64,000 bases of DNA from Mesostigma viride (lineage: Eukaryota; Streptophyta; Mesostigmatophyceae; Mesostigmatales; Mesostigmataceae). A program made the translations under genes and the position numbers. Shown one piece after another: positions 4,587 to 30,554 of this stretch; position 1 is the first letter of the stretch; every line of letters begins with the position of its first letter. The notes beneath the pieces were generated by a model that was not told the origin of the DNA, did not search any database, and saw only the letters and a program-made list of their open reading frames with translations. Location: contig RPFO01000175.1 in assembly GCA_009746045.1 (NCBI GenBank), positions 3,727,231 through 3,791,230 of the forward strand. The letters are read 5' to 3'.

Positions 4587-4642
4587 CACTATACTTTTCG
4601 TCCGAGGGTAGTAAAAATGATCCGAGGCGTAAATTACGAGGT
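4587..4642 (+). repeat. Left 56-bp TIR of the giant transposon
   Basis: It starts CACTATACTTTTCGTCCGA and ends AAATTACGAGGT. The reverse complement of 30499-30554 is identical over all 56 bases. Degenerate TTAC/ACGAGG motifs follow to about 4830 and resemble the array inside the right end. Confidence 0.95.
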
Positions 4643-5081
4643 CTTATCTTACTACCTAGATACGAGGCGTGAGATCCATTACTACCTATCATCCTACGTA
4701 GTAATTTTACTAGCCGTAAGTAAGAGTAACGTTACGACTGCACATCTTTGGTAGTACATTACCGACAGAGTAAATTACCGCGACGGGTCTTGGTTGGTAA
4801 TCTACCACCTGTAGATTAGGTGCCAGTGATCCGATGCTGTAAGATACGTTTCAGTAAGTTACTTCGGGGATCTTTGCCTGTACACGGCCAGATGGATAAT
4901 TATATTGTAATGGAGAAGTGGGAGAACGTGCGTGTCTATTAGCAAATGCAGCGAAATATAAAAATGTAGTTATCAGCCTTTTTCGCCTATTCAGCAGTTG
5001 TCGTTGTCGGCCGTTGTCAGTAAGCGGCTATAGATTATGTGTGCTGGGGCCGGTGAAAAGACGCTAGCAAAGTTCGTCTGA

Positions 5082-6192
5082 ATGGCGTCCAATAGAGGGG
5101 ATTTTATTCTTAGTGGATTGTTGGACGAGGAGAAGGCGAGGTTGCTGGCGGAGAATGCGAAAGAGCAGAGGGAAGCAGCGGAAGCCGTGCGTGGAAGATG
5201 AGGTAACGGGATGGAGTGTGGGCCCTGGCTTCTGGTTATGAAATGATGGCGGTTGCAGGCCAGCCGTGCTCGCTGGTAATGGGTGCGTGGTGTTGAAATC
5301 CAAGTTCTGCGCGTATTCTGTTTTTTGGTCAATGATTGAAGGGATGTCGCCTTGTTTTATTTTTGTGCATCTGCGTCCCGTCGTGACTGCCTCGTCATGG
5401 ACGCCCAGGGGTAGAAGTTCGAACGAGGGAATGATTTTTCAAACGCCTGGATATGTTATGATAGTACGAATAAATGGTAATGGGTAGAGGCGGCCAAAAT
5501 TTTGTTGGAAGTGTGCCAACGCCGCACATACGACTTGAACAACCCTAGGTATCTTAGGAAAAGGAAACACGGATACGTCGGAGTGGAGGAAGAGGAAGAC
5601 GATGACGATGGTGAAGACGGAGAGGTTTACAATGGAGGCCTTGAGAATGGGGAGACATTGAATCAGGAGAGCAGGGTAGCGGTGAGTGGCCCGTCATGAA
5701 TTACATTGTGGTTGCAGTTGTTAGCGAGGCGTGTTGATTGCTTCTTGCCGCGGGTAATCGCTAGCGCGCATAACCTTCTTTTTTCAACAGGTGTTCTGGT
5801 GCATTGACTGCCGCAAAGCAATTAATGGGACTGATTATGTGCCTATGATGCCGTTTGGGAATCATACATTGCCAACATTTCGTGTTTAGAAGGCGCGCCT
5901 TCAGAAGCATATTCAGCACCGCACGAGCCAGGTGCTGAAGGCGTGCTTGGAGAGGAAGGGGTATAAAGTGCGCATGACCGCATCGAAGAAGAAGAAGCAG
6001 CAGGAATCGGGCAAGACCATGATAACCGAGCCAGGATTGGCTTTCGTGCATGCAGTACATGGTGCGGCGCAGGCAGTGAATGCTGCATCGATTGCAGCGG
6101 TGCAGCCTGTGGCCATGGCGGTGCAGGGCGCGGGTCCTGAAGTGTGGGCGTTGGCGAAGCAGATTCACGATGCTGTCATGGCCACGTTGTGA
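5082..6192 (+). pseudogene. Zinc-finger-like cargo gene, broken by an in-frame stop
   Basis: A possible first exon starts at 5082 (MASNRGDFILSGLLDEEKAR, coiled-coil-like). A second exon at about 5486-5680 encodes ILLEVCQRRTYDLNN followed by an acidic run, and ends before a GTGAGT donor. A third exon at 5792-6192 follows a good acceptor (CTTTTTTCAACAG). It reads VFWCIDCRKAINGTDYVP, then PFGNHTLPTFRV, then one TAG at 5887-5889, then KARLQKHIQHRTSQVLK to a stop at 6192. C-x2-C followed by H-x2-H suggests a DNA-binding zinc finger of the kind found in transposon proteins. The single TAG in an otherwise open exon points to recent inactivation or readthrough. The exon 1 junction is not resolved. 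Confidence 0.5.
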
Positions 6193-8174
6193 AGCCAAGG
6201 AATGGGTGTTGGTTCCAGTCAGGTGCCTCGCCCGGAGGAAGCTTTTCTGCTGTAAGCAGAGGTGCGGCATCAAGCATTTGCAATCGCCATGAGAGCAGTG
6301 GAGATGTCTGCGGCATTGGGAGATCTGCAGACAATTGCAGGAGGACATTGTGCGGTACGCTTGTAGGGTGTATGCTGTGTTGTTCCGCTCGCTAATGGAC
6401 ATGTGCCCCTGTAACCTCTTCCAGGCTACTATCTCCTATACACCTCTTCAGGCTTGAAAAGTAAATTGCTGTACGGTTCACAATTGGCATGGCTTGACAT
6501 GCACGCGTCCTTGACTGTGGTGTGCATGGGTTTGGGGTTTAGCGGTTTACATCAGACTCAGCTGTGTATCTGCTTAATCAGCCGACGTGTCACATGGGGA
6601 CAGCAACGGCGCTGGGATGCAGCCCGGTGTGAATGCGAGTAAATTACGCGCTGTCATGCATGACGGATGGGGCGTGGAAGCCACGACCCACGCTTTTGTG
6701 TGTGCACGGGGGGGCTAGGGTGCCAGTCCTTGTGTTGCTGCCATCCATATGGGCATGGATATGCGGGAAGCTTTCCCCGTACCCATACTTAATGATGCAT
6801 GGACTGGTTGTGACAGCCAAGGGTTTAGCTGGCGTGGGTTTGCTGACTGATCATGGCAGGCTGCTAGGCTGGTGCTAGAACAGCCATAGCGCGGTTACTG
6901 CTATGTCTTGCCCGTGATAACTGATGCTGCAGCCATGCGTGGAGCGCGAATCGTCCCGTGAGGAGAAGGAGGAGGCGGGGCCGGTGCACCCACGGGCAGG
7001 GCCGGAGAAGAAGGAGGCGGAGCACCCAGTGTGGGAGAAGGAGAAGGCGGGGAAGCACTGAAGCTCCACCCCATGTCAGGCCTGTAGTATAGGTGCCAGT
7101 TAACTAAACCCATGCACGTGCAGGTTGTAGCTCAGAATGTATTTAAAATCATATGCCCCTTTGCAGGTATATATGTGTAACAGTGACTCCCAACGGATAT
7201 ATGTTCCTAATTTATTAGATTCTTACTGAATAATTGTTGTCTTTATGAACCCATGAAGAGCAAAGCCCGGTGGGGAGTACATGTAACGCATTACCACGAG
7301 AAGGGGTCCCCACACCGAACTTCTTCGCTCTCTGTTCCTATGCAGAACAAGAAGAGGTGGATGACCAATGTCCCGGCTCACACGCCAGCCCCTGTGGGCA
7401 AGCCCCCTCCCCCAAAGCGGAAGGGGCGCTTTGGGGAGAAGTGTAGTTAGGATTTTGTAGACTAGATAGGTTAGAGTTACCTTATTTCGATGTCGCGGCT
7501 TGACCCACCTCCACCCATTCAGCAAGGAATATGTGCTACATGATATCCCAACGGAGGCATGTTATAATTTTATTTGATTGTTTAATGTAGTGTCTTGGGG
7601 CATGATGCAGATGAGATTTGTAACTTCCGTGTAATTATGTTTCTAAATAGATTAGCATAGTACTATAAACATGCCCATGCGCATGACACGCAAGTACTTA
7701 CGGACTTCCACCAGACCTGGCAATAAACAAGCATTTGATGGGATGGACCCAGCGATACATAATGGCGTGCATGCATGAAAAATATACACTATGCATGGCC
7801 CAATGGGCATGCATTAAAGTAATTAGCAATGATAGCCGAGTACCTCCTATCTCATCCCATGTGGCGTCAGTCACAGACGACCTGAAAATAATACAGTAGA
7901 CATAACTGAAAGCTCTTGTCAAAAGATATTGGCACTGTCAATAGGTGGTAACAACAAAACCACGACAGGCCAAGGGAAAGGCCGACATGAGAGCACTGAA
8001 GCTAAACCGGCAGGCCGGGCCACAATTAACCCTCCAGCCCGAAAGTGCCACTGCATCATGTAAGACAAGCCTGAAATATGGACCAAGTCTCCCCCCACAA
8101 GAAATGTCCCACAGGTAACAACCACCAGCAACTCGATCACAGCTGACTGAAACGCATCCACAAAGACTGGTGTT
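6193..8174. other. Gene-poor stretch inside the giant transposon
   Basis: No convincing gene is visible. A GGAG-rich segment lies at 6960-7060. A dispersed repeat (ATGCCCC..TGACTCCCAACGGA..ATGTTCCT) near 7150-7210 recurs near 22066-22120. Remaining ORFs are short and lack motifs. Confidence 0.5.
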
Positions 8175-9419
8175 CTAGATACGAGTAACCACTTTCACGC
8201 CCATGAGGGTCGGGACGGCACTCCGACTGATAGTGTAGAGCCACCGGCCACACTCGCCCAGAAAGCGTCCTGCCTGCCCATACGTGTTCTGGGTAGACCG
8301 CCCAAATCGATTGCCGTCGCGCATGCACGTTGTCCGTGCCTCCTCAACCAGGTGCGACCCTCTTCCACGCAGCAGCCGCAACGTGCAGGGCTCCTGCAAC
8401 CGCTCTTTAAGGACGTTGGTAGCCGCTGGGTGCGTCAACAAGACGGCGCCGGCGAGAACCACGGGATCAAGTGTAGGCATGGACTCCAGCAAAGTTGCCC
8501 ACCCTGCACGATCCCAATAGTCCCTAGTATGCCCCGTGGACTCCCACCCCTCTCCCCAAGCCTGGCAGCTGGTGAAGACCACAATGCTGTACAGACCCCA
8601 CATGATCGGCGACTGCCATACGTGGTTCCACTCTGCCACGAGCTGCCTCTCCATTTCCTCTGGGGGCAGCAGGTCGTGGCCGCGCCTTTCGTCTTCATGT
8701 TGCCGCCACTGGGCAACGTATTCCATGCTCCACTGACTGCCCAGGTCTGCGGGAATGTCGCGAAGCGAGAACAAGTTCCCCAGGCAGGTGGGAGGCTGCC
8801 GGCGCAGACGCGACTTCACATCCGACATGAGCTTGCGAAATGTGGTGCCGTATGCCTCCAGGGTGGATGCAGACAGCTCCAACGTGATGCTGTTATTCCT
8901 GATGGGATTAGCCCGGGTGGGATCGAATAAGGTGCCAGTGATGAGCATGCGCGTTGGTGCTGCGATGTCGTCAATAGGGCCGTACTCTTCCTCCAAATGC
9001 TCCGCCTCCCTCCAATGAATACCGGTCTTGATCTGCCACTTGTGCTGCTGCACTATCAAACGCACTTCTTTGCTCATTACGCTGACCCTCGCGCGTTCCA
9101 GGGGGCCGAGTAGGTCAACAATGCACCCGAGGATTCCGGGCTCCATATCTTGGCCGAACCATGCCGGCTCATCAGGCCTGTGCTGGTCAGCAACCCTCAT
9201 GCGGTGTAATCGTACGGCAATGCTCTTCTGCGATAAGGACAGATTCTCGGTTACCGTTGCCAAATCGCAATGGGTCCGCAAAAATTCTTCGACTACCGCC
9301 GGCAACGACTCCGTCGAATACAGTGTCCCTCCCGACCGGAATGACTCCTCCGAGTCGGAGGGATAGGATCCCGTATCCGCCGAGCTCATGGGGGACCGCT
9401 CCCCTGGATCATTCGACAT
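8175..9419 (-). CDS. Unknown 414-aa cargo protein
   Basis: An uninterrupted minus-strand ORF starting at an ATG (MSNDPGERSPMSS; the frame is open a little further upstream without an ATG). The N-terminus is Ser/Glu-rich (PSDSEESFRSG). The middle is Arg/Trp-rich with KSRLRRQPPTCLGNLFSL, and the C-terminal part has LDPVVLAGAVLLTHPAATNV. I do not recognise a family. It is transcribed away from repeat array 1 and from the kinase gene on the other side of that array. The length and codon continuity make a real gene likely. Confidence 0.6.
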   Translation of the reverse strand: MSNDPGERSPMSSADTGSYPSDSEESFRSGGTLYSTESLPAVVEEFLRTHCDLATVTENLSLSQKSIAVRLHRMRVADQHRPDEPAWFGQDMEPGILGCIVDLLGPLERARVSVMSKEVRLIVQQHKWQIKTGIHWREAEHLEEEYGPIDDIAAPTRMLITGTLFDPTRANPIRNNSITLELSASTLEAYGTTFRKLMSDVKSRLRRQPPTCLGNLFSLRDIPADLGSQWSMEYVAQWRQHEDERRGHDLLPPEEMERQLVAEWNHVWQSPIMWGLYSIVVFTSCQAWGEGWESTGHTRDYWDRAGWATLLESMPTLDPVVLAGAVLLTHPAATNVLKERLQEPCTLRLLRGRGSHLVEEARTTCMRDGNRFGRSTQNTYGQAGRFLGECGRWLYTISRSAVPTLMGVKVVTRI

Positions 9420-9703
9420 GTCCGCTAATGCAAAGGCTGCCGCCTGCACCTGAGATGTCTGCGCGAGTGTTCACGCCGCGATACAGTTAGTTAGTCAGTA
9501 TGCGCGGAAAAGTCGACTCGTAAAAGTTATGTCGTCGTTCGACTTGAGAACCGGGTGGTGAGATTTGTGGGAAGGTTGTTGTAGTTGTTGTTGTATGTCC
9601 ACGCCGCACATGGGCAGCAGAGATTTGTGTGGGAAGGAGGGTGCATGGTGATCTTCTGCCACACCTAATGTGCAATGATGCACGCGGTGAAGTGCAATAG
9701 CGG

Positions 9704-10165
9704 GTCGACAGGGGGTCGCTGCGTACCTGCCGTGGGAAGGAGGACAAGTGATACACAAATACCGTACAAGTGATACACAATTGCAGCCAGGACAACAGCG
9801 GGTCGCTGCGTACCTGCCGTGGGAAGGAGGACAAGTGATACACAAATACCGTACAAGTGATACACAAATACCGTACAAGTGATACACAATTGCAGCCAGG
9901 ACAACAGCGGGTCGCTGCGTACCTGCCGTGGGAAGGAGGACAAGTGATACACAAATACCGGACAAGTGATACACAAATACCGTACAAGTGATACACAATT
10001 GCAGCCAGGACAACAGCGGGTCGCTGCGTACCTGCCGTGGGAAGGAGGACAAGTGATACACAAATACCGGACAAGTGATACACAAATACCGTACAAGTGA
10101 TACACAATTGCAGCCAGCACAACAGCGGGTCGCTGCGTACCTGCCGCGGGAAGGAGGGGGGTGGT
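9704..10165 (+). promoter_or_regulatory. GTGATACAC repeat array 1, between divergent genes
   Basis: The array has 11 copies of GTGATACAC plus one GTGGTACAC at the right edge. They are arranged in units of about 88-110 bp that also contain GCGGGTCGCTGCGTACCTGCCG and GGGAAGGAGGACAAG. It lies between the start of the minus-strand unknown gene (9419) and the plus-strand kinase (10805). Arrays 2 and 3 are copies of the same units. GTG..CAC gives each core a dyad, as for a protein-binding site. The regulatory role is inference. Confidence 0.7.
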
Positions 10166-10185
10166 ACACAAATATCCGACCTATA

Positions 10186-10710: not shown

Positions 10711-10804
10711 ATTGCCATACAAGAAGAAGCTCTCGATCCTAGGTATAGACTACCTCGTGTATCATCGTAATTGACAGCATCGAGATCATTCATACCTACC
10801 TACA

Positions 10805-11986
10805 ATGGCCAGCTGCAAAAGAAAAATGTCGACCAACAGACAGGACCTGTCGCCGGGAACCCTGTCGGCATTAAGGGCGAGACAGGCTTTTAATTCACGG
10901 ACTTACAGACTGCGTACATGCACCGCTTTGCATAGGGTGTCGCGTGTGTTGAACGCCGCGGACTCGCACGCTCGCAGGGACGTTGAGCTGCAAACCAATG
11001 CACCGTCGGATTGGAGCATTGCATTGCAGCGGCTGACGAATTATGATCAAAAGGTTTCTCACAGCGCTAGCAAGTTGACGCATGTCATCGCAGTGAAATT
11101 GTCAGGTGACCGGATAGGAAAAGGTGCTCATGGCACGTTATACGCTATCCCTGCTAGCTCGAGTGCACCAGGTGGCGAGGCTACGCTAGTGGTAAAGCTG
11201 GCAAGCCTTCGACGAGACACGCTGCTGGTGAACTACCAGGAGGCTGTTATAACCGCCGTTGTGGCAGTGGCCAAGGAGGCCGGTTTCATGTCTATAGCTG
11301 GCCCGCAGGTCTGCCCTGCAGTAGAAGGGCTCTGGTCCACGTGCGGTGAAGTAGGTGGTATTGTCATGGAGAGAATGAGTGGTGACTTGCATGCTGCCCG
11401 TGATGCCCCGGAAAATCAGCGTGTTTTCGAAGTTTGCTCACCCAGCGTCCTTGCAGACTGTGCAAAGGCATTGGCTGGCTTGCACGCCGTTAACATTATA
11501 CACAATGACGTCAAGCTCGATAATTTTCTCTACACCATGGCGCCAGGAAGTGCACATCCGATAATCCGTATTGCAGATCTCGGCCTGGCGACAAGAGGGG
11601 GGGAACGGATTTTCACGCATCAGGCTGGTAAGGATCGTCAGCCTCGGTGGCATCCCGCAACAGTGGACCAGCCCGGCATGACAGGAGGGGTGGTGACAGC
11701 GCAGCGAGACCATGATGTGTACTCCTTCCTTGTAATGGTGGTATCCTTGTTTCGGCATAAGGGCCGCGCTCTCTTCGTGAATTCTGTGGATTCAGGGCTA
11801 TTTAACTTGTGTCACAATGTCTATTACCACACCAAAAGGTTGGGCCCCCTTGCTTTCAAGCTACCCACGATGTCTGAAGTGGAGGAGTTGTTTCGCAATG
11901 CTCGGCCTTTTGTTTCCAGGCCTTGCCCAGAGAACGCTCCAGGGACACCACGGAACACGGTGCCCCTCCCGCGTGTCAGGGGTTAG
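10805..11986 (+). CDS. Protein kinase (transposon cargo)
   Basis: The 393-aa protein has kinase landmarks in order: a glycine loop GDRIGKGAHGTLY (about residues 101-113), VVKLA with the ATP-binding lysine near 131, the catalytic loop HNDVKLDN (233-240, Arg of HRD replaced by Asn), the metal-binding DLG (258-260, in place of DFG), and HDVYSFLVMV matching subdomain IX. These residues suggest an active Ser/Thr-type enzyme. The first 90 residues are basic and unrecognised, and no transmembrane segment is obvious. The gene is intronless and reads away from array 1. Its role for the transposon is unknown; a captured host kinase is the simplest explanation. Confidence 0.82.
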   Translation: MASCKRKMSTNRQDLSPGTLSALRARQAFNSRTYRLRTCTALHRVSRVLNAADSHARRDVELQTNAPSDWSIALQRLTNYDQKVSHSASKLTHVIAVKLSGDRIGKGAHGTLYAIPASSSAPGGEATLVVKLASLRRDTLLVNYQEAVITAVVAVAKEAGFMSIAGPQVCPAVEGLWSTCGEVGGIVMERMSGDLHAARDAPENQRVFEVCSPSVLADCAKALAGLHAVNIIHNDVKLDNFLYTMAPGSAHPIIRIADLGLATRGGERIFTHQAGKDRQPRWHPATVDQPGMTGGVVTAQRDHDVYSFLVMVVSLFRHKGRALFVNSVDSGLFNLCHNVYYHTKRLGPLAFKLPTMSEVEELFRNARPFVSRPCPENAPGTPRNTVPLPRVRG

Positions 11987-12250: not shown

Positions 12251-12261
12251 GGATGGATGGA

Positions 12262-12454
12262 TGGAGGGAGGGAGGGAGGGAGGGTTTAGGGTGGAGGGAG
12301 GGAGGGAGGGTGGAGGAGGAGGGAGGGAGGGAGGGAGGGAGGGAGGGAGGGAGGGAGGGAGGGAGGGAGGGAGGGAGGGAGGGAGGGAGGGAGGGAGGGA
12401 GGGAGGGAGGGAGGGAGGGAGGGAGGGAGGGAGGGAGGGAGGGAGGGAGGGAGG
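12262..12454 (+). repeat. (GGGA)n microsatellite
   Basis: Nearly pure GGGA repeats over about 190 bp, with small interruptions near 12288-12320. It forms a perfect purine strand, prone to triplex or G-quadruplex formation. Frames through it (poly-PSLP / REGG) are not genes. Confidence 0.97.
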
Positions 12455-12853
12455 GGTGCACGCAATCCTACCGGTCAAAGCGATCTACAAAACAGTTCTA
12501 TGTTCTCTTTGTGATGGTCGCGACCCTAGGGGTCTTGGTTGGCATGCCGCCCTCGTGTGAAAACACGTTCCTTCCCCACTGCATGGGGCTTGTTGGCCTC
12601 TATGACCTGCACAGTCACGTGTCTATTAATTAATCAATAAATTCATGACCATGGGCCCACGTGGCCATGTCCATCATCTTTCTCCAAATCACTTAAAGAG
12701 GACTAGCACCCCCATGCATGTCCTCTGCACATGCGGAGACGCCAATTCATCAGTTTAAATTTTGTATTCAACTCGTGACACGCCAATTAATTAATAAGCT
12801 AGTTAAGGAATTAATTAATTTTGTGCACATTAATTAATTATTTAATAGACACG

Positions 12854-12970: not shown

Positions 12971-12978
12971 TTAACCCC

Positions 12979-13399
12979 GATGGATGGATGGATGGATGGA
13001 TGGATGGATGGATGGATGGATGGATGGATGGATGGATGGATGGATGGATGGATGGATGGATGGATGGATGGATGGATGGATGGATGGATGGATGGATGGA
13101 TGGATGGATGGATGGATGGATGGATGGATGGATGGATGGATGGATGGATGGATGGATGGATGGATGGATGGATGGATGGATGGATGGATGGATGGATGGA
13201 TGGATGGATGGATGGATGGATGGATGGATGGATGGATGGATGGATGGATGGATGGATGGATGGATGGATGGATGGATGGATGGATGGATGGATGGATGGA
13301 TGGATGGATGGATGGATGGATGGATGGATGGATGGATGGATGGATGGATGGATGGATGGATGGATGGATGGATGGATGGATGGATGGATGGATGGATGG
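12979..13399 (+). repeat. (GGAT)n microsatellite, about 105 perfect units
   Basis: Roughly 420 bp of GGAT without any visible interruption. Such purity implies very recent expansion. Predicted frames (WMDG / IHPS repeats) are artefacts of the repeat. Confidence 0.98.
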
Positions 13400-14483: not shown

Positions 14484-16022
14484 CTAAAGAGGGTGTGCCT
14501 CAGCCACAATATACATGCAGGCTAGCGTGTCCTTGGCCCTGTCGCCAATTGCACCTTCCAAGGGCACGGTGTTCCTGGGGTGAACAAAACTGTCCACTTC
14601 ACGCCACGCCGCGGCCCTGCCAGCGCGCCGTAGGAGCTGCCAGTGCTTCTCCTGTTTATACACGAGGACGGCGCAGAGCCACGCAGTCACCTCGTACCTT
14701 TTACGCTCTTCGCCCCCCACCGTGATGCGTACCACGATCTCTTCCGGCAGTTGGTGCGCAGTCTGTGCCGGCAGTCTCTCCATGAAGAAGTCCATGACCG
14801 GGATCATGGTCGGGACAGTCTTGAAGACTCGTACAGAGCGTTCATGGAAACCCGCGCACCCAGGGGTGCACAACGTCTTACCGTTGGTGCCGCACCCTTG
14901 GGTCAGCGCCATCTGGATGGCCTCGAGGATGGAGTGTCCAGCATTGCGTCGCGATGGCGTGCACTTCATGTGGCAGTCGATAGGAAGCTTCACGAGCAGC
15001 TCCTCCGTGGGCCGACATGTGTGGCCTACTTCGCGGAGGTCGCACCCCTGCAGATGCCACATCACAGTCGTCAAGCAGCGGGAAGCACCCAGGAATTTGC
15101 CCACCGGCACCTGCGCTGCATCAGCGCATCCTTTGTGCACCCTCTTCTGCCACCGCTCGTAATTCTTGCGCGGCTCTGTATCGATAGCGATAAACCACCG
15201 GATGATGCACGTGCCCAGCTCGCATCGCTGGGGGTCATGGGCGCGACCCCTCGCTCGACCCGTGAGAAGCTGTGCTAGCCCGACCCCGCCACCAGACACC
15301 ACCGCAGCTCCCGCGTTGGCAAACTCGATGGCAGCGTCTGGGGCACAGCTGTTATCCCCCCATTTCCCCGTGTGCTCCCGGCCAGCCTTCACCCTGTGCT
15401 CACCGTGCTTTCTCAACAGTTCCGCACTCTCCGTGCAGTGCCTGCAGTCCTCGTCGGGACCAGGACACTCTGCCGGAAATGCCGGGTCAGTGGTGCGATC
15501 GATCTCCACAGGGCTGGCAGTCCCTGCATCATCATCATCCTTAGCAAGGTCGAGGGGAAGATCGGCGCAGTCTCCCGCCTTCACCCCCGCTGCCTTCTCA
15601 CTCGACTGTGGCCCTGGCGGCTTCCCCACCGTCCCCTCTGCCGCCGCACTCGCCTGAGGATGGACCACCACCACTACCTTCATCGCCGCCTCCGCTCTCT
15701 GCCTCGCACCACGCTTCCCCTTCTGCAGCGCCTCCGCCTTCCCCCCCGTCTCCCCCTCCGCCGCCATCCTCTCTGGAACTCTCTCGTCCCCCCCCGTACC
15801 CGCCGCCTCCGCCTTGCCCCCCGTCCCCACCTCCACACCCCTCGAGTCTGGATCTCCGTCCTTCCCCCCCGTGTTCGACGTCTCCGCAGCCTGCTGTGCA
15901 GCCCGCCTCCTCCTCGTCTGCGGCCCTGGCGACGCCACTACCACCTTCCTCTTCTTCTTTTTTGGCTTCCCAATGACGCTGACGCTAGGCTCCTCATCGG
16001 TGGAGGACAACTCAACCACCAC
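14484..16022 (-). CDS. USP-like (C19) peptidase candidate with NLS, N-terminus unresolved
   Basis: Open minus-strand frame of 512 codons. Near its N-terminus GKPKKKKRKVVV is a classical nuclear localisation signal. Then come Gly/Ala/Glu-rich repeats (TGGKAEAA, ERMAAEGETGG). From residue about 215 the sequence resembles a ubiquitin-specific protease: WGDNSCAPDAAIEFANAG with candidate nucleophile Cys226, a Cys-rich middle (GCGTNGKTLCTPGC), then RYEVTAWLCAVLVY, EKHWQLL (candidate His460), WREVDSF (Asp477) and ACMYIVAEA near the end, the positions of the His box and final AYMLxY motif. Family assignment is by motif pattern only. No ATG begins the frame; it enters from a repeat region where the reading frame shifts, so an upstream exon or a frameshift is likely. 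Confidence 0.5.
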   Translation of the reverse strand: MVVELSSTDEEPSVSVIGKPKKKKRKVVVASPGPQTRRRRAAQQAAETSNTGGKDGDPDSRGVEVGTGGKAEAAGTGGDERVPERMAAEGETGGKAEALQKGKRGARQRAEAAMKVVVVVHPQASAAAEGTVGKPPGPQSSEKAAGVKAGDCADLPLDLAKDDDDAGTASPVEIDRTTDPAFPAECPGPDEDCRHCTESAELLRKHGEHRVKAGREHTGKWGDNSCAPDAAIEFANAGAAVVSGGGVGLAQLLTGRARGRAHDPQRCELGTCIIRWFIAIDTEPRKNYERWQKRVHKGCADAAQVPVGKFLGASRCLTTVMWHLQGCDLREVGHTCRPTEELLVKLPIDCHMKCTPSRRNAGHSILEAIQMALTQGCGTNGKTLCTPGCAGFHERSVRVFKTVPTMIPVMDFFMERLPAQTAHQLPEEIVVRITVGGEERKRYEVTAWLCAVLVYKQEKHWQLLRRAGRAAAWREVDSFVHPRNTVPLEGAIGDRAKDTLACMYIVAEAHPL

Positions 16023-16079
16023 CGCCGCCCCCCCGTCCCCGCTTCCTCAGCCTCCGCCTCCGCCCCCGGCCCCACCTCC

Positions 16080-17020: not shown

Positions 17021-17033
17021 TCCGCCTCCGCCC

Positions 17034-17825: not shown

Positions 17826-18309
17826 TTGGCGTCCTGTTGCCAATACCATCTGGCTGTCATCCTACTCAATTCCAATTCTCTGCCCCCCTCCCCCCTTGGA
17901 CACGTCTCCTTGCAACTGTAACTTTGGCTTCCCCTCCCATCTGTATGCTTCTACATCTCTTCAGCATCTGGTCCAATGCCGCCCCCCCTCACCCCTCTCG
18001 TGCCACAGATTCAATGCTGAGAGAAAGCGGGTTACGCATTGAGTCATTCATGCAGTATCAGCAAAGAGTACAGCCGATATTCACATGTCCAGAGGCGCAC
18101 ACGCCTCCGTGACTGCCGTCATCGCCCGCTAACGCAGGGAGCGGCAGATGCGTGTGCTGTGCCTCACATTTTTGCACGTCATCCGGAGAGAAACATCAGG
18201 CCACATAATGCTGTCACATATGAATAAGTCATCAACGCGCTGTTCCCATATGCAAATAAAGATTGTCGTCAACATGTTGCATGCAACAAGCAATCACACA
18301 GTCGCCTAC

Positions 18310-19664: not shown

Positions 19665-20120
19665 ACGTATTTGTGTATCACTTGTCCTCCTTCCCACGGC
19701 AGGTACGCAGCGACCCGCTGTTATATTGGCGGCATTTAATTGTGTATCACTTGTACGGTATTTGTGTATCACTTGCCCTCCTTCCCACGGCAGGTACGCA
19801 GCGACCCGCTGTTGTCCTGGCTGCAATTGTGTATCACTTGTACGGTATTTGTGTATCACTTGTACGGTATTTGTGTATCACTTGTCCTCCTTCCCACGGC
19901 AGGTACGCAGCGACCCGCTGTTGTCCTGGCTGCAATTGTGTATCACTTGTACGGTATTTGTGTATCACTTGTACGGTATTTGTGTATCACTTGTCCTCCT
20001 TCCCACGGCAGGCACGCAGCGACCCGCTGTCGACCTGGCTGCAATTGTGTATCACTTGTACGGTATTTGTGTATCACTTGTCCTCCTTCCCACGGCAGGT
20101 ACGCAGCGACCCGATGTTGT
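19665..20120 (-). promoter_or_regulatory. GTGATACAC repeat array 2 (inverted), between divergent genes
   Basis: The same units as array 1, but in reverse orientation (GTGTATCAC on the plus strand, 11 copies, with GTACGCAGCGACCCGCTG). It lies between the start of the minus-strand three-exon gene (19519) and the plus-strand dioxygenase (20234). Confidence 0.75.
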
Positions 20121-20233
20121 GCATGGCAGCCCGCCAATTAATTTTGTACTGAAGGTTGGTATAACCCTTAACAGCACGATCGATAGCCTTTACATACTCG
20201 GTTGCTTTTAAACCCTGTTTTCTTTGCCGGTAT

Positions 20234-21232
20234 ATGATGGAATCCGACTTGGCTAGTCAGCAGGAAGTCGCCAAGGCGTGCAAAGCCATGAAGAAGATGC
20301 AAGCCAAAATTATGAAGGCAAACAGGTGGCGCGACATCGACCAGAAAGCTGCTATCAAGAGGGCTGGTGGATTGAAGGAATATAGGAAGCAGCAGGCGGA
20401 AAGGCAAAAAGCAAGGCGGGCGGCGGCCAAGAAGGTTCCTGCCAAGAAAAAAACGCCCGCCTCATTGAAAGCCGAAGAGAACCACCGTGTGGGCAACCGG
20501 AAGAATGCCGGGGAAAAGGCGATTGAAAACGTGGCATTGCGTGAGAGGAACATTGCCGAAACCCCTTTACAAAAGAAGTGTGCGGCGGATATCAGGGAGA
20601 GGGGATACACTGTCATACGAGGCATCGTAAGCGAGGAAGTACGCGTGCAGATGCTGAATGCTGCGCAAGACATGCCGGATACTAAATTTGACAGAATTTT
20701 TCGGAAGTACAACGAGAACACCAAGACGTTTTCATTCCCTCCAAAGCAACGTAGCCAAGCCCTTATCGACGAAGACAGCCCGTTTGGGAAGCTCGTCGTG
20801 GGATTGGCGGTCAAGATCCTGCATGCTGCGCTGGACATGTCCTACGTGCCTAAGCCACGTGAGTTGCTGGTGCTCCGAAGCCTGGCTAACTGCAAAGAAC
20901 AAGGGCCCCATTCCGATCTTACACGTGAAGTTTTGGCATGGGAGGTATACTTCCCAGTAAGTTGCATCATCGCTGTACAACCCGACACACGTTGGGTTTC
21001 GTACGACAATAGTATCCGACATTATAGGAAGAGGGACATCTCCAAGAGGGGGGAGGGAAAAACTGAGGTGATGCTCAATCCTGGTGATGTTGTCTTGTGG
21101 CATGGAGCACATGTGCATGCTGGTGCCGCGTACCAGGTGGAAAATCGCCGCATTTTTTTCAAGGGCATCAGCACGGCAAGGCGATTGGGCAACCAGGGTC
21201 TCGCAGATAGCGTTTGCCCAGTGATTGTGTAA
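20234..21232 (+). CDS. 2OG-Fe(II) dioxygenase (transposon cargo)
   Basis: A 332-aa intronless ORF beginning with two adjacent ATGs. The first ~110 residues are Lys/Arg/Ala-rich (KKVPAKKKTPASLKAEE) and could bind DNA. The rest has the double-stranded beta-helix signature: GPHSDL with His226 and Asp228 as metal ligands, LNPGDVVLWHGAHVHAGAAY with distal His293 or His295, and ENRRIFFKG with Arg304/305 for the 2-oxoglutarate carboxylate. Such enzymes hydroxylate or demethylate substrates using oxygen and 2-oxoglutarate. TET/JBP-type members that oxidise methylcytosine are known cargo of some transposons, but I cannot assign this one to that subfamily from sequence alone. The start is 114 bp from array 2. 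Confidence 0.72.
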   Translation: MMESDLASQQEVAKACKAMKKMQAKIMKANRWRDIDQKAAIKRAGGLKEYRKQQAERQKARRAAAKKVPAKKKTPASLKAEENHRVGNRKNAGEKAIENVALRERNIAETPLQKKCAADIRERGYTVIRGIVSEEVRVQMLNAAQDMPDTKFDRIFRKYNENTKTFSFPPKQRSQALIDEDSPFGKLVVGLAVKILHAALDMSYVPKPRELLVLRSLANCKEQGPHSDLTREVLAWEVYFPVSCIIAVQPDTRWVSYDNSIRHYRKRDISKRGEGKTEVMLNPGDVVLWHGAHVHAGAAYQVENRRIFFKGISTARRLGNQGLADSVCPVIV

Positions 21233-21397
21233 GTAAGTAAGTAAGTAAGTACTTGCGTGTCATGCGCCAAGGCATGCCACGGAGTACTATGCTAATCTCA
21301 TTAGAAAATAATTACACAAAAGTTTAAACAAATATCGTCTGCATCATCCCCCAACCGTTAAGCACTAGATTATTGTATTGTGTAAGTAGTCCACCAC
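21233..21397. other. Short spacer after the dioxygenase
   Basis: Begins with about six TAAG units immediately at the stop codon (21230-21254). Nothing else is recognisable. Confidence 0.6.
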
Positions 21398-21985
21398 CCA
21401 CCCACCCACCCTCCCACCCACCCACCCACCCACCCACCCACCCACCCACCCACCCACCCACCCACCCACCCACCCACCCACCCACCCACCCACCCACCCA
21501 CCCACCCACCCACCCACCCACCCACCCACCCACCCACCCACCCACCCACCCACCCACCCACCCACCCACCCACCCACCCACCCACCCACCCACCCACCCA
21601 CCCACCCACCCACCCACCCACCCACCCATCCATCCATCCATCCATCCATCCATCCATCCATCCACCCACCCACCCACCCACCCACCCACCCACCCACCCA
21701 CCCACCCACCCACCCACCCTCCCACCCACCCACCCACCCACCCACCCACCCACCCACCCACCCACCCACCCACCCACCCACCCACCCACCCACCCACCCA
21801 CCCACCCACCCACCCACCCACCCACCCACCCACCCACCCACCCACCCACCCACCCACCCACCCACCCACCCACCCACCCACCCACCCACCCATCCATCCA
21901 TCCATCCATCCATCCATCCATCCATCCACCCACCCACCCACCCACCCATCCATCCATCCATCCATCCATCCATCCATCCATCCAT
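21398..21985. repeat. (CCCA)n/(CCAT)n tetranucleotide array
   Basis: About 590 bp of CCCA units with three internal blocks of CCAT units. The complementary strand is GGGT-rich, a G-quadruplex-prone sequence. All long frames through it are repeat artefacts. Confidence 0.97.
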
Positions 21986-22962: not shown

Positions 22963-23013
22963 TCCCTACGTTACAAAATGCCGTGATTATCTGACACGGC
23001 CATCCTATGCAGG

Positions 23014-26000
23014 TCATCGTTTCCCATGCTGGTCCGTCACGCCCCCCATGTGCAGGTCACGATAGTACGCTGGGCACGCCCAATCAAACGCATCCAGCAC
23101 ATAGTGGTTGTTCCCAAGGTGGTCGTGCTTCACCTGTAGGACTGGTTCTGATGTGGTGTCACCTACACGTGCCGCCACATGCTTTACTTTGCATTTGGTT
23201 TCGCAACCACGCCGCCAGCACTGATGCAACAGTCGGACCTGTGACCCCAGGTAGGACAGAGGCTGTGGATACTTCCCGTTGGCTTTCCACTGCGAGGACA
23301 GTGTCATGTCTTTGGTGAACACAGGACAGTCCGTCCAAGTTTCGTCCATGTTGAACATGGGCTTGCCCTGAACGTCCTCTGCATTCCCTGACTCAAACCA
23401 AATCGGGACAAACCACATGCTCCCCATGGCCCCCTCAGCAGGCGTCAGCATGAAGATGGTGCCAACCTCAGCAAACCAAAATTCAGCGTCCACATTGTCC
23501 GCCGCCTGGTATGCCAATGAGTCTGCCGTCGCCACTTGACCTTCCGGGTATGCATCAGTGTGGAAGCACCTGACCTCCCCAGTCGTAATGGTCCTGGCAC
23601 CGACTACTGCACTAGCATAAACCTTCACGCTGCCAGTTGCTTCATCCCAGGGTGGACAGCCCAGCGGGGCGAGAAGCTCGTCCACCGTCTGCTTGTCAGC
23701 GCCAATTTCCGCCAACGTAGGTGTTGACTTAGGGTTACGGCCGCAAGGCATGCCCCCCATGACCTGCACACACACAGCACCACATGCAAAACACACAAGT
23801 GCCGTTGTTAGCCTGGGCATATGAACGGAAATGCTGGGTCGGCCCAGCACACCAAGGAATGCCCTAGCCCTAGCGCCAGCGCAGCCATAGCAACAGCGCC
23901 CATGCGTTTCCTCACCTGCTCGATGCGCCCCAACGCGCAGCGCTCGTGTATGACCGTTGGAAAAGTCGCCCCTTGCCGCACCCACACCTCCCGCCCAGAA
24001 GGACCGCCACTCGCGCCACTACCAGTCGCGGCCGCTTTGGGATACAGCTTGTTGAACATCCTGCTTTCCTGCAAGGTTTGCAGCACGCGTTCATCGAGCT
24101 GGGATGTCTCCTTAACCAGCATTGACTGCCACGCCAAGTAGCCCTGTAGTTTCTGCAGCAAGTAACGCCCCGGCTCCTTGCTGTGGCATTTGGCCATGGA
24201 CTCCATGAGAGATTTCAGGAATAAGTGGTACCCCTCAAATTCATGCGGGCCCAAGGACCAGATACGACCCACATCGTCAGTCTGTGCCAAAGCATGGCGC
24301 GGTATGTGGACGTTATGGCTGGCGGCATTGTCTTGGCGTGCCATCCTCTTCTTCTTCTTCTCCGCGTTCTTCTTCTTCTTCTCCGCGTTTTTCTTCTTTT
24401 CGTCGCCATCCGCTGCCTCAGCCATTGCCCCAGGACCCTTTCCTGCAAGGCTGCCACGCGGCCACAAGGTGCCGAAACACTCTTGAAAAGTGGCGTAGAC
24501 GTTGTCAGCAGCCAAGTTGTAGATTGGAGACGTAACGGGACCAAGCATCATCTGCGCCCACTTGGCGAGGTGCATCACCATCTTGCTGATCCGCCGGGCC
24601 TTCCTTTTCTCCTTATCATCTCCCTCATTCCGCCTCCTCAGCAGCAGCATGGGAAGTGCAAAAGGCATTTGGAACAGTAGGGTCAGCAGCTCCATTCCCT
24701 TGTAATGTGGATACAAGGTAAAAGCTTTCCCCTGCGGCAGCCGGCTCCCGACGCGCGTGGGGTGTGCGCTTACCCAAGCATCCAACTCCGGGTGCTGGCG
24801 AGTGGGAATTCCATCCTCCTCGAGGTAGCGAGCCACCTGCTTACATAGACCCAACGTCAGATTGTGAAAGATATCCATCGGATACTGCCGGTAGCGGTCA
24901 AAGAATCGAAGCTCCCGCCAAGGCCACAGCGGCTGATACATCACCCCGGTCTCCTTCGCCTTCTCTTTCCGTGCCGTGGCCGTCGCCATGCCCTCCATCT
25001 CCTCCAATATTTCCGCCGTTTGCTTCTCACTGCGCATGTACTCCGCCACGTCCACCGTCGCATCCGCCCAGTCGTCGTGGTGAACGTTGCAAAAGGGGCA
25101 TCCCTGCAGTGGCGCACACACCCACAATGCGCCGCACACCAAGGTACGCAGAAATAAAAGAAGGCCTGATGGTTACGGTGATAACAAACCAACACAGCTT
25201 CCCAATACATCAAGGTCACATGGGCAGCACCCCGAACCAAGCTACGTGACAACATCACTCACTTTGTCGCCGGTGCAACCCTTGTGCCCCATCGCGCCGT
25301 TGCGGGCGGCCGAATCCATCACGTTCAGGTTCGCGACACGGATTTCCCACCGCTCCATTGGCGTATTGGGAAACTTCACAAGCATGGGCACGCCCTCTGC
25401 CATCGCATCCATGTCCTCCACAAGACACTCAAGGACTGCCTCTCGTGGCACATGTGTATCTCTCACGGTGATGGGGAAGATCATGTCTCTTGACTTGTTG
25501 TCGGCGCGCTCGATGTTCAGAACAGTGAACAAATGCGCTTCCAGCGTCCCATGCCGATGGAGATACTCCTCAAATGAGTCATCCCACAACGCCACTACCA
25601 AATATAGGATGCGTAGACCATCCTTAGAAGGGCGGTAACAGCGGAATTCGGCTTCCCATCTAGAGAATCTCAGCCTCTTGTACCGAGGCTTGTCCGGGGA
25701 CAGGTTGTACGACCTGCGCATGAAGAACACTCGCCCGCCCTCTCGGTCAGCCTCGGCAAATTTCCTCCACTTACGGACGCCAACCACGTCAATGTGACCC
25801 CCGTAGTTCAGTAAAGAGATCTCCTGCTCATGCTTCGTCCAGAAGACCTCACTGACACGATCGGCATCCCGCGGTACGGTCCCCCCGGACAATCCCTTGC
25901 GCGGTAGAAGAACCTGCAGGCATCATGACGGCGGGCAAATACTATAGGATTGTCATCAATATACAATACTAGATCCATCCAAGCGTGCTGGACGTGCACA

Positions 26001-27572
26001 CGTCAATATCCTCCCACCAAATGTAGTGCACTCTGTGTCATCCTGCGCATGCGTGGTCTCAATTTAGGATGCCGAGGATGCCGAGGAGTGGCTAACCTCG
26101 GGAAAATAGTGTTCGGAACTTTGCGCTCATGCAGGACCAAAAAGGCTACGACATTATTTGGTCTCTAAACACACCACATTGCTGCATAAACACTGTCATC
26201 ATACTTGATATATGGTGCAAACATTGCACTTCCCACAACCCAGTTTAATAACCATGCTTGCACTGGCCCGGATGCATGCCCATTACGGCAGTTTATAGTG
26301 GTCAACTGGTACCAACCAACAAGGGAGCCCGGACAGACACCAATCTGTTTTCAGCAGAATGCAATTAACTCAGCATGTGCAATCCCAAGGGCATATCATG
26401 ATGAGTGTACATCGACACAAAAGCACCATCCGTGCCACTTACCGGACTTTCGCCCATGGCTCACGAGTACCGTCAGCGTTTACTTGCATGAAGACAGCGC
26501 GGACAAGGCAAAGTTCTTCTCGCTTTCGCTGCCCCTTGTTGTTGTCCATTAACACCATGATGGTGTCCCCAATGCGGACGACACTCTGCCGCTTCTCACT
26601 GGAACTTGCTGCCAAGGCGGGAAGCTGCACCTCCTGTTGTTGAACTGTTGGATGGGTGTTGTAAAACTGGGTCTGATTGAAAGTCCACACACGCCGATCC
26701 TCATTCATCTCGTGTTCTAGCAACAGTTTCCCCGTGAACGACTCATTCTGCAGCAGAGCGGATAGCGTTGACTGTATGCTGATGTAAGTGAACTTGACTG
26801 CCTCACGCAAAGGATCGCCCTCTGCCTCCGCTGGGACCCAATTCACAGTCAGTGCGTCCGCAAGGGGCAGGCCCTTCTCCAATGACCGTCTCCTAGCCAC
26901 GCCGAACTCCCCGTGGCTGGTCACACTGTATTGTGGGTGCTTCGCCAGTTCCTGAAACGCTTCGATGCACTTATCAGGAAGACCAAACTCCGTGGCTATG
27001 CAGAAAAGCGAAGCCTGTGTAAAATCCGCGTTCCCAGACAACGGCTTAGACCATGCCCATGGGTTTCTTGATGCACGGCCGGCGCCGGCCTCAACATCAC
27101 CAGCCGTTCCTCCCCCACCGTCTGTCGTAAGCCCCTCCTCCGCCATCGCCCCCCCTGCCCCACCGTCTGCCGTAAACTCCTCCTCCGCCATCGCCCCCCA
27201 TTCCTCCTCCATTGAGTCATCAGGGCGCGGCTCAGCAGGCTCTACGCCTTCCATGCCCGCCGCATCGGGCTCCGGCGACCGTGTATCCACTTCAGCCACT
27301 TCAACAGCTTCGGCGGTCTTCAACAGCTGTTCACCTTGCGGGCATTCCTGGCGTGGCTCACCAAACAGCCTTCGCCGTTTGGCTCCGTCGTTCCCGCCGC
27401 TGGGAACGGACCAGGAGGCACCGACATTGGGGCGCGCGACGAGCGGTTGTGGACCGATATCGGGGAACGAGAAGGGTGCCTGACGACGAGAACGTTCAAG
27501 GGCCTCACCTACGAACGACTTTTGGGGGGACTTGTAATATGCCTGAGATCGACGAGTCTTCAGCCAGCTCAT
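23014..27572 (-). CDS. Multi-exon transposase of the giant transposon
   Basis: Exon 1 (about 26443-27572, ATG, MSWLKTRRSQAYY) has an acidic low-complexity middle and ends at CG|GTAAGT. Exon 2 (25263-25913), exon 3 (23916-25103) and exon 4 (23014-23763) join perfectly in phase for 862 residues. Exon 2 has YLVVALWDDSFEEYLHRHGT and later NLNVMDSAARNGAMGHKG, plausible first and second catalytic acids of an RNase H-fold transposase. Exon 3 opens with GCPFCNVHHDDW and has YPMDIFHNLTLGLCKQ and a Lys-rich insert. Exon 4 has FNMDETWTDCP. The layout (acid motif, then CP.C, then D.HN..LG) recalls TNP2-type CACTA transposases; assignment is tentative. Exon 1 to exon 2 does not join in phase with the obvious sites, so a small exon or another donor is needed. 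Transcribed away from array 3. Confidence 0.7.
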
Positions 27573-27717
27573 TTGCTTGTCAGGCTGACAATTCCGTGCG
27601 CATCGTTGCCATGCAGTGTCGTCCCATTAATATTGTATACACCTCCAGTTGCAACAAACGCCATGGACGTACAGCAATTACAACACGAGGCTTACACCAA
27701 TACCTAACTAAACCGAA

Positions 27718-28088
27718 GGTGGTACACAACTGCCGCGGGAAGGAGGGGGGTGATACACAAATACCGTAAGTGATACACAATTGCAGCTTACAAGTGATAC
27801 ACAATTGCAGCCAGGTCGACAGCGGGTCGCTGCGTACCTGCCGTGGGAAGGAGGACAAGTGATACACAAATACCGTACAAGTGATACACAAATACCGTAC
27901 AAGTGATACACAATTGCAGCCAGGACAACAGCGGGTCGCTGCGTACCTGCCGTGGGAAGGAGGACAAGTGATACACAAATACCGGACAAGTGATACACAA
28001 ATACCGTACAAGTGATACACAATTGCAGCCAGCACAACAGCGAGTGGCTGCGTACCTGCCGTGGGAAGGAGGGGGGTGGTACACAACT
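27718..28088 (+). promoter_or_regulatory. GTGATACAC repeat array 3, between divergent genes
   Basis: Nine copies of GTGATACAC bounded on both sides by the variant GTGGTACACAACTGCCG. The GCGGGTCGCTGCG and GGGAAGGAGG blocks are the same as in arrays 1 and 2. It starts 146 bp from the transposase ATG (27572), the same spacing as array 2 to its minus-strand gene, and ends about 250 bp before the plus-strand gene at 28337. Confidence 0.75.
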
Positions 28089-28336
28089 GCCGCCAGTATA
28101 ACAGCGGGTTGCCGCGTTTTAGGGTGACCTGACAGCGATGCCGCAAGAACGTGTACCGTGCGATGTTTGGTTTGCCCCTGACCACTGGGGTTGTAGCCGT
28201 CGGATGGCTGCAACCACGTGTGTACGCGAAATTTGACAGTGCACCAGGAGTGCACGCGAAATTTGAAAGTGCGCCTTCACGTCTTCACCACCGTAGGTGA
28301 CTCCAGTTGACGTTTACGCGCAGCTCATCAGTTTCT

Positions 28337-29771
28337 ATGGCGCCCAAGCTCAAGAAGAAGGCCATGATGTCGCGGGAGGAGGAGGACATCGGCCGGCGGC
28401 GCAAGAAAAGCCGCCAGTTGCCTTCCTCCGAATCCGAATCCGAATCCGATTCCTCTTCCTCGTCGTCCTCCGGCGAGGACGACGATATGGCGCCCCCCCG
28501 GATGCACCGGCCACCACCTCCGCCGGCAGGAACTTGCAAATCGCGGCCAACAGGGCGGAGGAGGGCCTCAGGCAGGAGGTGGCGGCATTGAGACAAGACG
28601 TCGCCAGTCTCATGACGCGACTGGGCACCAAACTGCCCAGGAATTTCGTGGGTAGCACATTACGCATTTTATAGCTTATTTGCTGAACTTTTTTGCTTTA
28701 CACGATTCATTATTCCAGATTTCTAACTTCGCACTTTCTCTATCTTGCACATTGCACGTTTGCAGAAGACGACCCCAGCTTTTTCGGCAGCTGTCGAACA
28801 CCTCTCCAGGCATTGCCTGAGCGTTCGCCCTGACGTCGGGCAAGCCGTTCAGCTGGACCAGGAGCGGTCCGTCAGGGAGATGGGTCTGCGTGGCGCGATC
28901 GCCATGTTCTTCCAGGAGTCGGGCATCGTGAGAAGCCCCGCCGACTCGGTTCCTGCGGAGGATTACGTTCAAGTCCGGGCTGCGCTGATCAAGCGCCTGG
29001 CCAACCACCGGTCCAACTTGTACAAGTTTGGCCTGGTGCGTGTGTCCGACGATTACACGCCGTGGTTGGTGGGGACGGCCACCACCAATCGCATCAAGAA
29101 GTACGCAGACCTTCCAGCATGGCTGAAGGAGGACTTCTGCCGCGTGGTACTTTTGTACTATCTGAAGATGTTGCACTTCACGGTGCAGGTAAGCAGCCTT
29201 CTTATCATTGTTTCGTGGCATGCGCTTACTTTCTTTAACACATTGGTACATAGGCCTATACTGCATGTCACTCCATTTAGTTTTTGTATGCCAACAATGA
29301 CTTATATTGTTTGTTCAATGCATGCACGGTTAAAATGAATGTACTTGCCGTGTGATCATGACACCACAAGCAGGAGTGCGGGACAAGCGGCCTGAGCTGT
29401 GGGAAGATTGGGAAGACATCGCCTCCAAGTGCTGGGACAAGAAGAAGGTGCGCGAGGCCCTTCAGGCCACGACCGTGATGCGGTCTGGGCCAAGGCGCGA
29501 GTGGGACGACGTGGAGGAACGTTTCAAGGAGGTGGCGAGGACGCGTGCTTCCTTCCGGCAGGTGCCAGCGCGTGTCTTGTTCGACAACATAAACAACCCG
29601 TGGCCCTACTCTGACGCAAGCACAAACTCGCACAACCGCACAAGCATCGGCGCCTCGAGCGCACCAAGCGAGCGCACATCAGAACCTGCCGAGGAGACCC
29701 CATCCATCGGCGCCGCGAGCGGGGATGTCACGCACTCGGCACCGGGCCAGCCCCAGTCAGCACCTTTGTAG
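28337..29771 (+). pseudogene. Unknown cargo gene, exons do not join cleanly
   Basis: Exon 1 starts MAPKLKKKAMMSREEED at 28337 and runs into a Ser/Glu tract. Near the C7 run at about 28494-28500 the frame shifts; the continuation reads EEGLRQEVAALRQDVASLM, a short coiled coil. Exon 2 (28766-29188, acceptor TTTGCAG, donor GTAAGC) encodes SVREMGLRGAIAMFFQES and LPAWLKEDFCRVVLLYYL. Exon 3 (about 29374-29771) encodes RPELWEDWEDIASKCWDKKK and a Ser/Thr-rich tail with the repeat SIGAASG. Exon 2 to exon 3 is one base out of phase. No family is recognised. The gene is read away from array 3, opposite the transposase. Broken, or an unseen splice choice. Confidence 0.5.
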
Positions 29772-30120
29772 AAGACCCCACCCATCGGTGCCTCGAGCGA
29801 GTTTGTCACGCAATCCAATGGATGATAACAAAGCCAATAAATATTTAAGGATGTCATCAGCCGACTTGGTTATCTGATCATATATTGTGCTACCATGGTC
29901 CGGATTATCCCGATTTCTGGCCTGCGATGGTTGTCTCCTTGATGTCTTGTGTTAGAGTTTCAATGTATTATAAATGCGACAAGGACATCGGCTGAAATGT
30001 GAGAATGAAGACATATTGGTTAACTAAACTTTGTTTTATGCTGAAATATGAAATAATAAACTCTTTTAGGCTCATTTCATGAAACTGAACATTGCACAAA
30101 TTAAAACCAAATAAATAGAA
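29772..30120. other. Spacer before the right subterminal array
   Basis: AT-rich, no gene. The first 50 bp repeat a SIGASS/SIGAAS-like coding unit from the end of the preceding gene. Confidence 0.5.
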
Positions 30121-30124
30121 GACA

Positions 30125-30425
30125 TCTTAAGTTACAACTCGTAAATTACCAACTCGTACATTACTACCTCGTACGTTAACACCTCGTATGTTACTACCTC
30201 GTAGATTACTACCTCGTAAATTACTACCTCGTAAATTACTACCTCGTAAATTACTACCTCGTAAATTACTACCTCGTAAATTACTACCTCGTAAATTACT
30301 ACCTCGTAAATTACTACCTCGTAAATTACTACCTCGTAAATTACTACCTCGTAAATTACTACCTCGTAAATTACTACCTCGTAAATTACTACCTCGTAAA
30401 TTACGACGTCGGATCTTACCTCGGA
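30125..30425. repeat. 15-bp subterminal tandem array, right end
   Basis: About 18 copies of ACTACCTCGTAAATT, the middle ones perfect and the outer ones degenerate. Subterminal repeats of this kind are typical binding sites for CACTA-type transposases. The left end has only scattered degenerate copies. Confidence 0.93.
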
Positions 30426-30498
30426 TCTAACTCGTAGCTTACGAAAAAGATCCGAACTCTTATACAAACGGTAAGAGTAGTCTGTGCCGTAAATTACC

Positions 30499-30554
30499 AC
30501 CTCGTAATTTACGCCTCGGATCATTTTTACTACCCTCGGACGAAAAGTATAGTG
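30499..30554 (-). repeat. Right 56-bp TIR of the giant transposon
   Basis: Exact reverse complement of 4587-4642. It ends ..AAAAGTATAGTG, followed by TG of the target. Confidence 0.95.

Follow-up and report, generated by a model that had tools for sequence, protein, structure and literature searches.

A stretch of 64,000 nucleotides from the Mesostigma viride contig RPFO01000175.1, called the window below, was analysed, and we found that its positions 4587-30554 very probably represent one copy of a large, gene-carrying DNA transposon of this alga. The element has perfect terminal inverted repeats (TIRs) and 2-bp target site duplications (TSDs), is present in many dispersed, near-identical copies that include a collinear one, and encodes its own transposase, in which a BAH domain is combined with a DDE domain of the CMC kind. 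An earlier sequence-only reading had proposed one 26-kb cargo-carrying mobile unit in a plant-lineage genome, and the results described here supported that proposal.

Ends of the element and its copies in the genome

The TIR search placed the left TIR, which begins CACTATACTTTTCG, at 4587-4642 (plus strand) and the right TIR at 30499-30554 (minus strand), and the two were identical over exactly 56 bp in inverted orientation. Comparison of the flanks at the insertion site (GGCTG/CACTA on the left and TAGTG/TGGTACC on the right) revealed a 2-bp TG duplication at 4585-4586 and 30555-30556. Both the perfect CACTA ends and the flanking TG had been pointed out from the letters alone, and the latter was confirmed as a target duplication. 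The first 12 bp of the TIR had no other occurrence in the window, and its first 22 bp, with up to five mismatches allowed, were not found there besides the two ends. Outside the element, a gag open reading frame (ORF) with a CCHC knuckle, recognised by eye (2879-4306, plus strand), lies on the left and a protease ORF (30553-31179, plus strand; gag-asp_proteas, E 5e-13) lies on the right, in agreement with the claim that the insertion had split a retrotransposon at the host site. The subterminal repeats that had been noted were upheld at the right end, where the 15-bp unit CTCGTAAATTACTAC forms a tandem array of 17.8 copies (30138-30404, plus strand); the left end contains just scattered motifs related to this unit.

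We searched the Mesostigma viride assembly (439.9 Mb, 2243 contigs); repeat counts from this search are minimum values. Allowing one mismatch at most, we obtained 117 forward and 118 reverse matches (235 ends) to the first 37 bp of the TIR; the reversed control gave none in either orientation. Pairing was performed with the 100 of these 235 ends that were listed, and 74 of the 100 formed 37 convergent pairs. Among these listed ends, 17 pairs were shorter than 13 kb, six measured 13-18 kb and 14 measured 20.9-43 kb. The transposase was matched in 11 of the 14 long pairs, the dioxygenase described below likewise in 11, and both in 10 (23.6-43 kb), the longest of which probably hold nested insertions. 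The position of the dioxygenase in the long pair of C1624 falls within a run of N; the long pair of C1602 was matched by the dioxygenase alone, and that of C1635 was matched by it twice. In the pairs below 13 kb, many of which were about 11 kb long, neither gene was matched (0 of 17), so these were read as non-autonomous, and the 16.2-kb pair of C446 contained the transposase with no dioxygenase match. These tallies used 47 of the 98 rows for the transposase and 41 of the 122 for the dioxygenase (those of the type with at least 83% identity, and main fragments); second fragments of a locus and divergent families were set aside, and reading these remaining rows by eye changed no pair. Across the genome, the start of the dioxygenase was located 3.4-4.7 kb from the transposase in 24 of 38 full or near-full loci and at most 12 kb away in 27 of 38. 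Additionally, 26 of the 122 dioxygenase matches were at least 95% identical over all 332 amino acids (aa), and for the frame of transposase exon 3, 37 of the 98 matches covered at least 450 of 454 aa without a stop, at an identity of at least 99%.

At seven left ends besides that of the window, homology ended at the TIR or at most 4 bp outside it, and the flanks differed. Both ends were read for 15 elements at 14 independent sites, and a 2-bp duplication was present at 11 of the 14, the expectation by chance being 1 in 16 per site. The elements of C113 and C183 were counted once because their flanks are mutually reverse-complementary. In these two contigs (C113:180545-204182 and C183:10109-35321), the element occupies one site in opposite contig orientation, and they may be alleles kept separate in the assembly.

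Six copies were tiled against the window by BLAST. Between window positions 4583 and 30137, the C1646 copy (30,314 bp) was collinear except at tandem arrays and where some pieces were inserted or missing, and it had the same right TIR; substitutions amounted to 0.71% over 22,836 aligned columns. The C1624 copy was mostly collinear with the window, interrupted by insertions and by 5000 consecutive bases of N, and it differed by 0.69% from the window and by 1.06% from C1646. In the C1790, C1757 and C1735 copies, the left ~3 kb and an inverted ~1-kb module were common with the window and the remainder was different. The copies of C1790 and C1757 also share the last ~150 bp of the window's element (as BLAST pieces), and that of C1735 shares the right TIR itself. 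The C2133 copy showed a mixed pattern and runs into N.

Transposase and accessory genes

The transposase gene was predicted to consist of four exons on the minus strand, extending from 27626 to 23014, with inferred GT-AG borders. Exon 1 (26443-27626), whose start codon is uncertain, contains the N-terminal region and the first part of the BAH domain; exon 2 (25263-25913) contains the second part and two catalytic D candidates; exon 3 (23916-25103) contains the C2C, H3H and E motifs and a Plavaka-like match; and exon 4 is located at 23014-23763. The spliced transposase of C1624, whose exon 4 runs into N, scored 31.1 bits against BAH (cut-off 30.8) and 20.1 bits (E 4e-4) against the Plavaka family PF18759, below the cut-off of 26.3. 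PF18759 was the sole transposase family matched, and no EnSpm/CACTA Pfam family was matched. A C2C motif of the GCPFC type was found in all four aligned transposase sequences, and H3H (NVHIPRH type) together with FE was found in all three that reach that far. The motifs D(S/A)F and D(S/T)xAR were assigned by eye as the catalytic D candidates. By its predicted sequence, the transposase combines a BAH domain with a Plavaka-like DDE domain that is very divergent and carries CMC-type motifs. When the spliced transposase was compared with 5.8 billion proteins, 7994 candidates were scored and none reached E≤1e-3. A protein search with the alignment of four transposase sequences, with 7998 candidates scored, gave one match only, the Mesostigma protein P0002, which has 100% identity with L053, the first query sequence of that alignment.

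The transposase, kinase and dioxygenase genes named in the sequence-only reading were all supported by profile matches. The kinase is a single open frame of 392 aa (10808-11986, plus strand) that matched Pkinase with an E of 3.3e-8, above the gathering score. The 2-oxoglutarate and Fe(II) (2OG-Fe(II)) dioxygenase-like gene (20165-21232, plus strand) matched PhyH with an E of 7e-5, also above the gathering score. PhyH and Gig2-like were its only profile matches, and no TET/JBP family was matched among the ORFs scanned against Pfam. One relative of the dioxygenase was found outside, P0001, with 40% identity over 86% of the query, and the HxD and distal VHAG...R (His/Arg) motifs were conserved between the two; no relative was found in viral contigs. 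An AlphaFold model of the dioxygenase, built from a single sequence, had a mean pLDDT of 44 and, being unusable, was not used.

The USP-like ORF (14484-16046, minus strand) was assigned by eye. A peptidase is plausible from its Cys box (NSC..D..EF) and a later His box (HWQLL / HFSLL), and the Cys, His and Asp residues were conserved in a relative from C1525 (two sequences only); no Pfam family was matched. A PDB search with the USP-like and dioxygenase ORFs gave weak, unrelated matches and no peptidase for the former. The proposed zinc-finger gene was not recovered, as no zinc-finger family scored among the scanned ORFs of the element. The Pfam scan also gave no tyrosine recombinase, polymerase or capsid family among the scanned ORFs, and no convincing family match for the 431-aa ORF (8175-9470, minus strand; sub-threshold rubredoxin-type match, E 0.057) or for the gene called p28 (28297-29771, plus strand). 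The latter is composed of the frames 28297-28674, 28727-29338 and 29334-29771, with inferred exon limits. No function was assigned to the 431-aa ORF, whose 1296 bp were 100% identical in C1624 and C1646, or to two further open frames on the minus strand (18232-18789 and 18801-19250).

We also located three tandem modules of a 109-bp unit on the plus strand of the element: copy 1 at 9708-10157, an inverted copy 2 at 19737-20117 that is 98% complementary to 9708-10088, and copy 3 at 27730-28072. Related sequence was also observed within the tiled shorter copies. Four-base tandem arrays (GGAG, GATG, CCAC) occupy 12251-12455, 12979-13399 and 21394-21984, and the corresponding gaps in the C1646 copy differ in length. 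In or near the elements of C1525 (L049/L050) and C1735 (L009-L010), mutually similar ORFs resembling retroelement ORF1 were recognised by eye, and these are probably nested insertions.

Divergent relatives and competing explanations

The same genome contains divergent relatives of the element, with transposase exons that are 24-53% identical. Within the 98 rows of transposase-exon matches, the C1525 locus showed 44-48% identity, C1668 showed 38%, and 30 rows showed 32-33%. The C1525 element is 18,259 bp long and has a 29-bp TIR, CACTAAGCGATTTTTCTACGCGTCGTAAA, and an AC duplication; the exon matches of its transposase are 35-53% identical. It contains a USP-like ORF (27% identity, E 3e-17) on the opposite strand to the window's arrangement, and a p28 (30%, E 6e-13) that matches the last two p28 frames of the window and has the same location as there, with the transposase on one side and the right end of the element on the other. 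In L054, which belongs to the 32-33% family, a kinase with 44% identity (E 1e-60), truncated by the start of the L054 sequence, was found at a distance of ~1.4 kb from the transposase, on its 3' side, together with a sub-threshold BAH match (E 0.0014). In L053, the transposase alone was matched (29-35% identity). Since these relatives keep parts of the gene set, some of the apparent cargo would be long-standing equipment. The transposase with its shifting accessory set looks old, and the copies of the window's family, being nearly identical, look young. Near the 5' end of the divergent transposase, at L054:7190-7510, we observed a cluster of palindromes containing CACTATGTACTCC...GAGTACATAGTG, which may consist of subterminal repeats or be a small nested element.

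Dioxygenase homologues with 26-48% identity were found elsewhere in the genome, in more than 50 of the 122 rows. A repeated unit was also observed at L047:4059-7585 and L048:4031-7556, 99.8% identical over 3.5 kb and with differing flanks. It contains genes for a Rieske oxygenase and a divergent dioxygenase of 286 aa, and an ORF with a MYND finger lies on the strand opposite to the latter; dioxygenase matches of this kind occur in 11 genome rows (30% over query positions 110-313), and the unit may be another gene-carrying mobile unit.

It is very improbable that the window contains a chance nest, in which unrelated elements or host genes were inserted into a short CACTA element and produced the gene set by accident. 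Such a nest would fit the numerous same-TIR pairs of ~11 kb among the listed ends (17 of 37 pairs are below 13 kb) and the apparent later insertions in copies, for example the retroelement-like ORFs in C1735 and a 590-bp repeat in C1624. However, C1646 and most of C1624 are collinear with the window, the transposase and dioxygenase recur with similar spacing in 10 of the 14 long pairs among the listed ends, and accessory genes adjoin even the divergent transposases of C1525 and L054. The collinear copies largely refute this explanation. The test proposed in the sequence-only reading also favoured a single unit, as same-TIR loci elsewhere carry the same inner genes and the TIR start occurs in the window at the two ends only. 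An origin of the 26-kb block copies by segmental duplication instead of transposition is extremely improbable, although passages of PMC6947507 describe such duplications as abundant in this genome and C113 and C183 share one site. For the copies examined, homology extends no further than 4 bp beyond the TIR, the flanks differ and the 2-bp TSDs vary by site, on which grounds we rejected this origin.

We consider it rather unlikely that the cargo is passive, consisting of captured host genes in the manner of Pack-CACTA elements and serving no role for the element. Gene capture by Pack-CACTA has been described for plants (passages of PMC13317346). The frequency of dioxygenase homologues elsewhere, including the separate repeated unit L047/L048, the variation of gene content between families, and the excess of nonsynonymous over synonymous changes in the USP-like and p28 frames are all consistent with passive capture. 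Against it, the genes are complete open frames and not fragments, and the kinase and USP-like genes adjoin transposases even where they are only 27-44% identical, which is unexpected for unconstrained passengers.

The interpretation as one gene-carrying transposon also has several points against it. Transposition, expression and protein activity were not observed. Among the insertion sites, 3 of 14 (C1663, C113/C183 and C1735) have no clean 2-bp duplication, and 2 of the 14 long pairs among the listed ends (C1665 and C1767) contain neither transposase nor dioxygenase; these two may be nests. The kinase, the dioxygenase and the 431-aa ORF were unmatched in the 31.4 kb around the C1525 element, and element ends were not found in L053 or L054, so what was seen in L054 is a kinase next to a transposase. 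Regarding the reading frames, a 1-bp frameshift, possibly an assembly error, interrupts the BAH part in the window (exon 2) and in C1646 relative to C1624, whose frame is open. The transposase of the C1646 copy has small indels and lacks ~260 bp of exon 3, and the C1624 kinase has two 1-bp gaps. Such frameshifts and gaps suggest that copies may depend on others, or they may be assembly errors. Between copies, the USP-like ORF showed 23-25 nonsynonymous and 5 synonymous changes. For the p28 frame at 28727, the ratio was 11:4 against C1646, with frame-shifting gaps, and 12:7 against C1624 (two pieces), and for the frame at 29334 it was 3-5:0. As framed here, the USP-like and p28 sequences thus appear to be without strong recent constraint. 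The kinase, dioxygenase and 431-aa ORF were 99.7-100% identical between copies where present, and because of this near-identity dN/dS between copies is little informative for most genes.

Proposed mechanism and comparison with known systems

Three features point to cut-and-paste transposition of the CMC type: the CACTA ends, the duplications of 2 bp and the series D, D, C2C, H3H, E. The transposase would cut out the whole unit and reinsert it with a 2-bp stagger, and the ~11-kb copies that share its TIRs would be mobilised in trans. BAH domains function in chromatin reading, and the presence of this domain raises the idea that the transposase might read chromatin. TnpA of En/Spm binds subterminal repeats, and the position of p28 beside the right array leads us to guess that its product might do likewise. 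With less certainty, we infer that the element keeps its kinase, USP-like peptidase and dioxygenase not as random passengers but for the help they give it, most likely against silencing or at the chromatin level. This role is favoured by analogy with TET/JBP-carrying fungal transposons (PMC12730594) and not by family membership. A further-reaching proposal, which we regard as unlikely, is that the element represents an unnamed giant CMC clade whose chromatin toolkit (BAH-transposase, deubiquitinase-like peptidase, kinase and 2OG dioxygenase) would jointly open or demethylate silenced copies; the element would then work, at the base of the plant lineage, as a self-sufficient machine against silencing.

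The usual gene content of a DNA transposon with TIRs is one or two genes. With a multi-gene package of at least 26 kb moving as one in a unicellular alga that stands at the base of the streptophytes, it would become testable how large a load a CMC transposase can mobilise, and whether kinases, peptidases and dioxygenases borne by transposons act against host silencing, as has been proposed for the fungal transposons with TET/JBP genes. In practical terms, there is a risk that ORFs of element copies are taken for expanded families of host genes.

Compared with EnSpm/CACTA elements, the Mesostigma element has the same 5'-CACTA...TAGTG-3' termini, short subterminal repeats and the C2C and H3H motifs. 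The target duplication of EnSpm/CACTA is usually 3 bp, whereas that of the Mesostigma element is 2 bp, and the latter additionally has several extra genes. Starships and Mavericks/Polintons are likewise giant gene-carrying elements of eukaryotes, but tyrosine recombinase, polymerase and capsid families were not matched by the scanned ORFs of the Mesostigma element. The TET/JBP-carrying fungal transposons (KDZ, Plavaka and others) are similar in having a 2OG dioxygenase on a DNA transposon lineage, and they differ in that the Mesostigma dioxygenase matches PhyH, weakly. The fungal Plavaka elements of the CMCT clade are similar in their 2-bp duplications and through the PF18759 match, which was below the cut-off for the Mesostigma element. 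According to passages of PMC12730594, Plavaka can carry a dioxygenase gene, and the termini of PlavakaA/B are 5'-TGT (TGT...ACA) or 5'-CATCA (CATCA...TGATG), in contrast to the CACTA...TAGTG termini found here. The Mesostigma element also differs from Plavaka in its BAH domain, kinase and USP-like gene. A paper on the green alga Auxenochlorella contains the word Plavaka once.

The combination of a BAH-DDE transposase with a kinase, a USP-like gene and a dioxygenase at 26 kb was not met in the titles and abstracts of the open-licence literature on Plavaka, CACTA, giant transposons and BAH transposases. Enlarged CACTA elements of 16-20 kb with 4-5 ORFs are cited for the red alga Chondrus crispus in a review of giant transposons (passages of PMC6431247); the likeness lies in large size, ORF number and algal host, and the Mesostigma element measures 26 kb, with TIR pairs that hold the same two genes reaching 43 kb. 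The suggestion of an undescribed class is borne out in so far as the unit is large and carries cargo, and it is tempered by the CMC/CACTA motifs, the weak Plavaka match and the Chondrus precedent. Three characters of the CMC(T) clade were present: C(2)C and H(3-4)H before the last E in the DDE transposase, 5'-CA...TG-3' termini, and duplications in the range of 2-5 bp (2 bp at 11 of 14 sites and AC in C1525). The Mesostigma element is akin to known CMC/CACTA elements and possibly represents a new clade within CMC.

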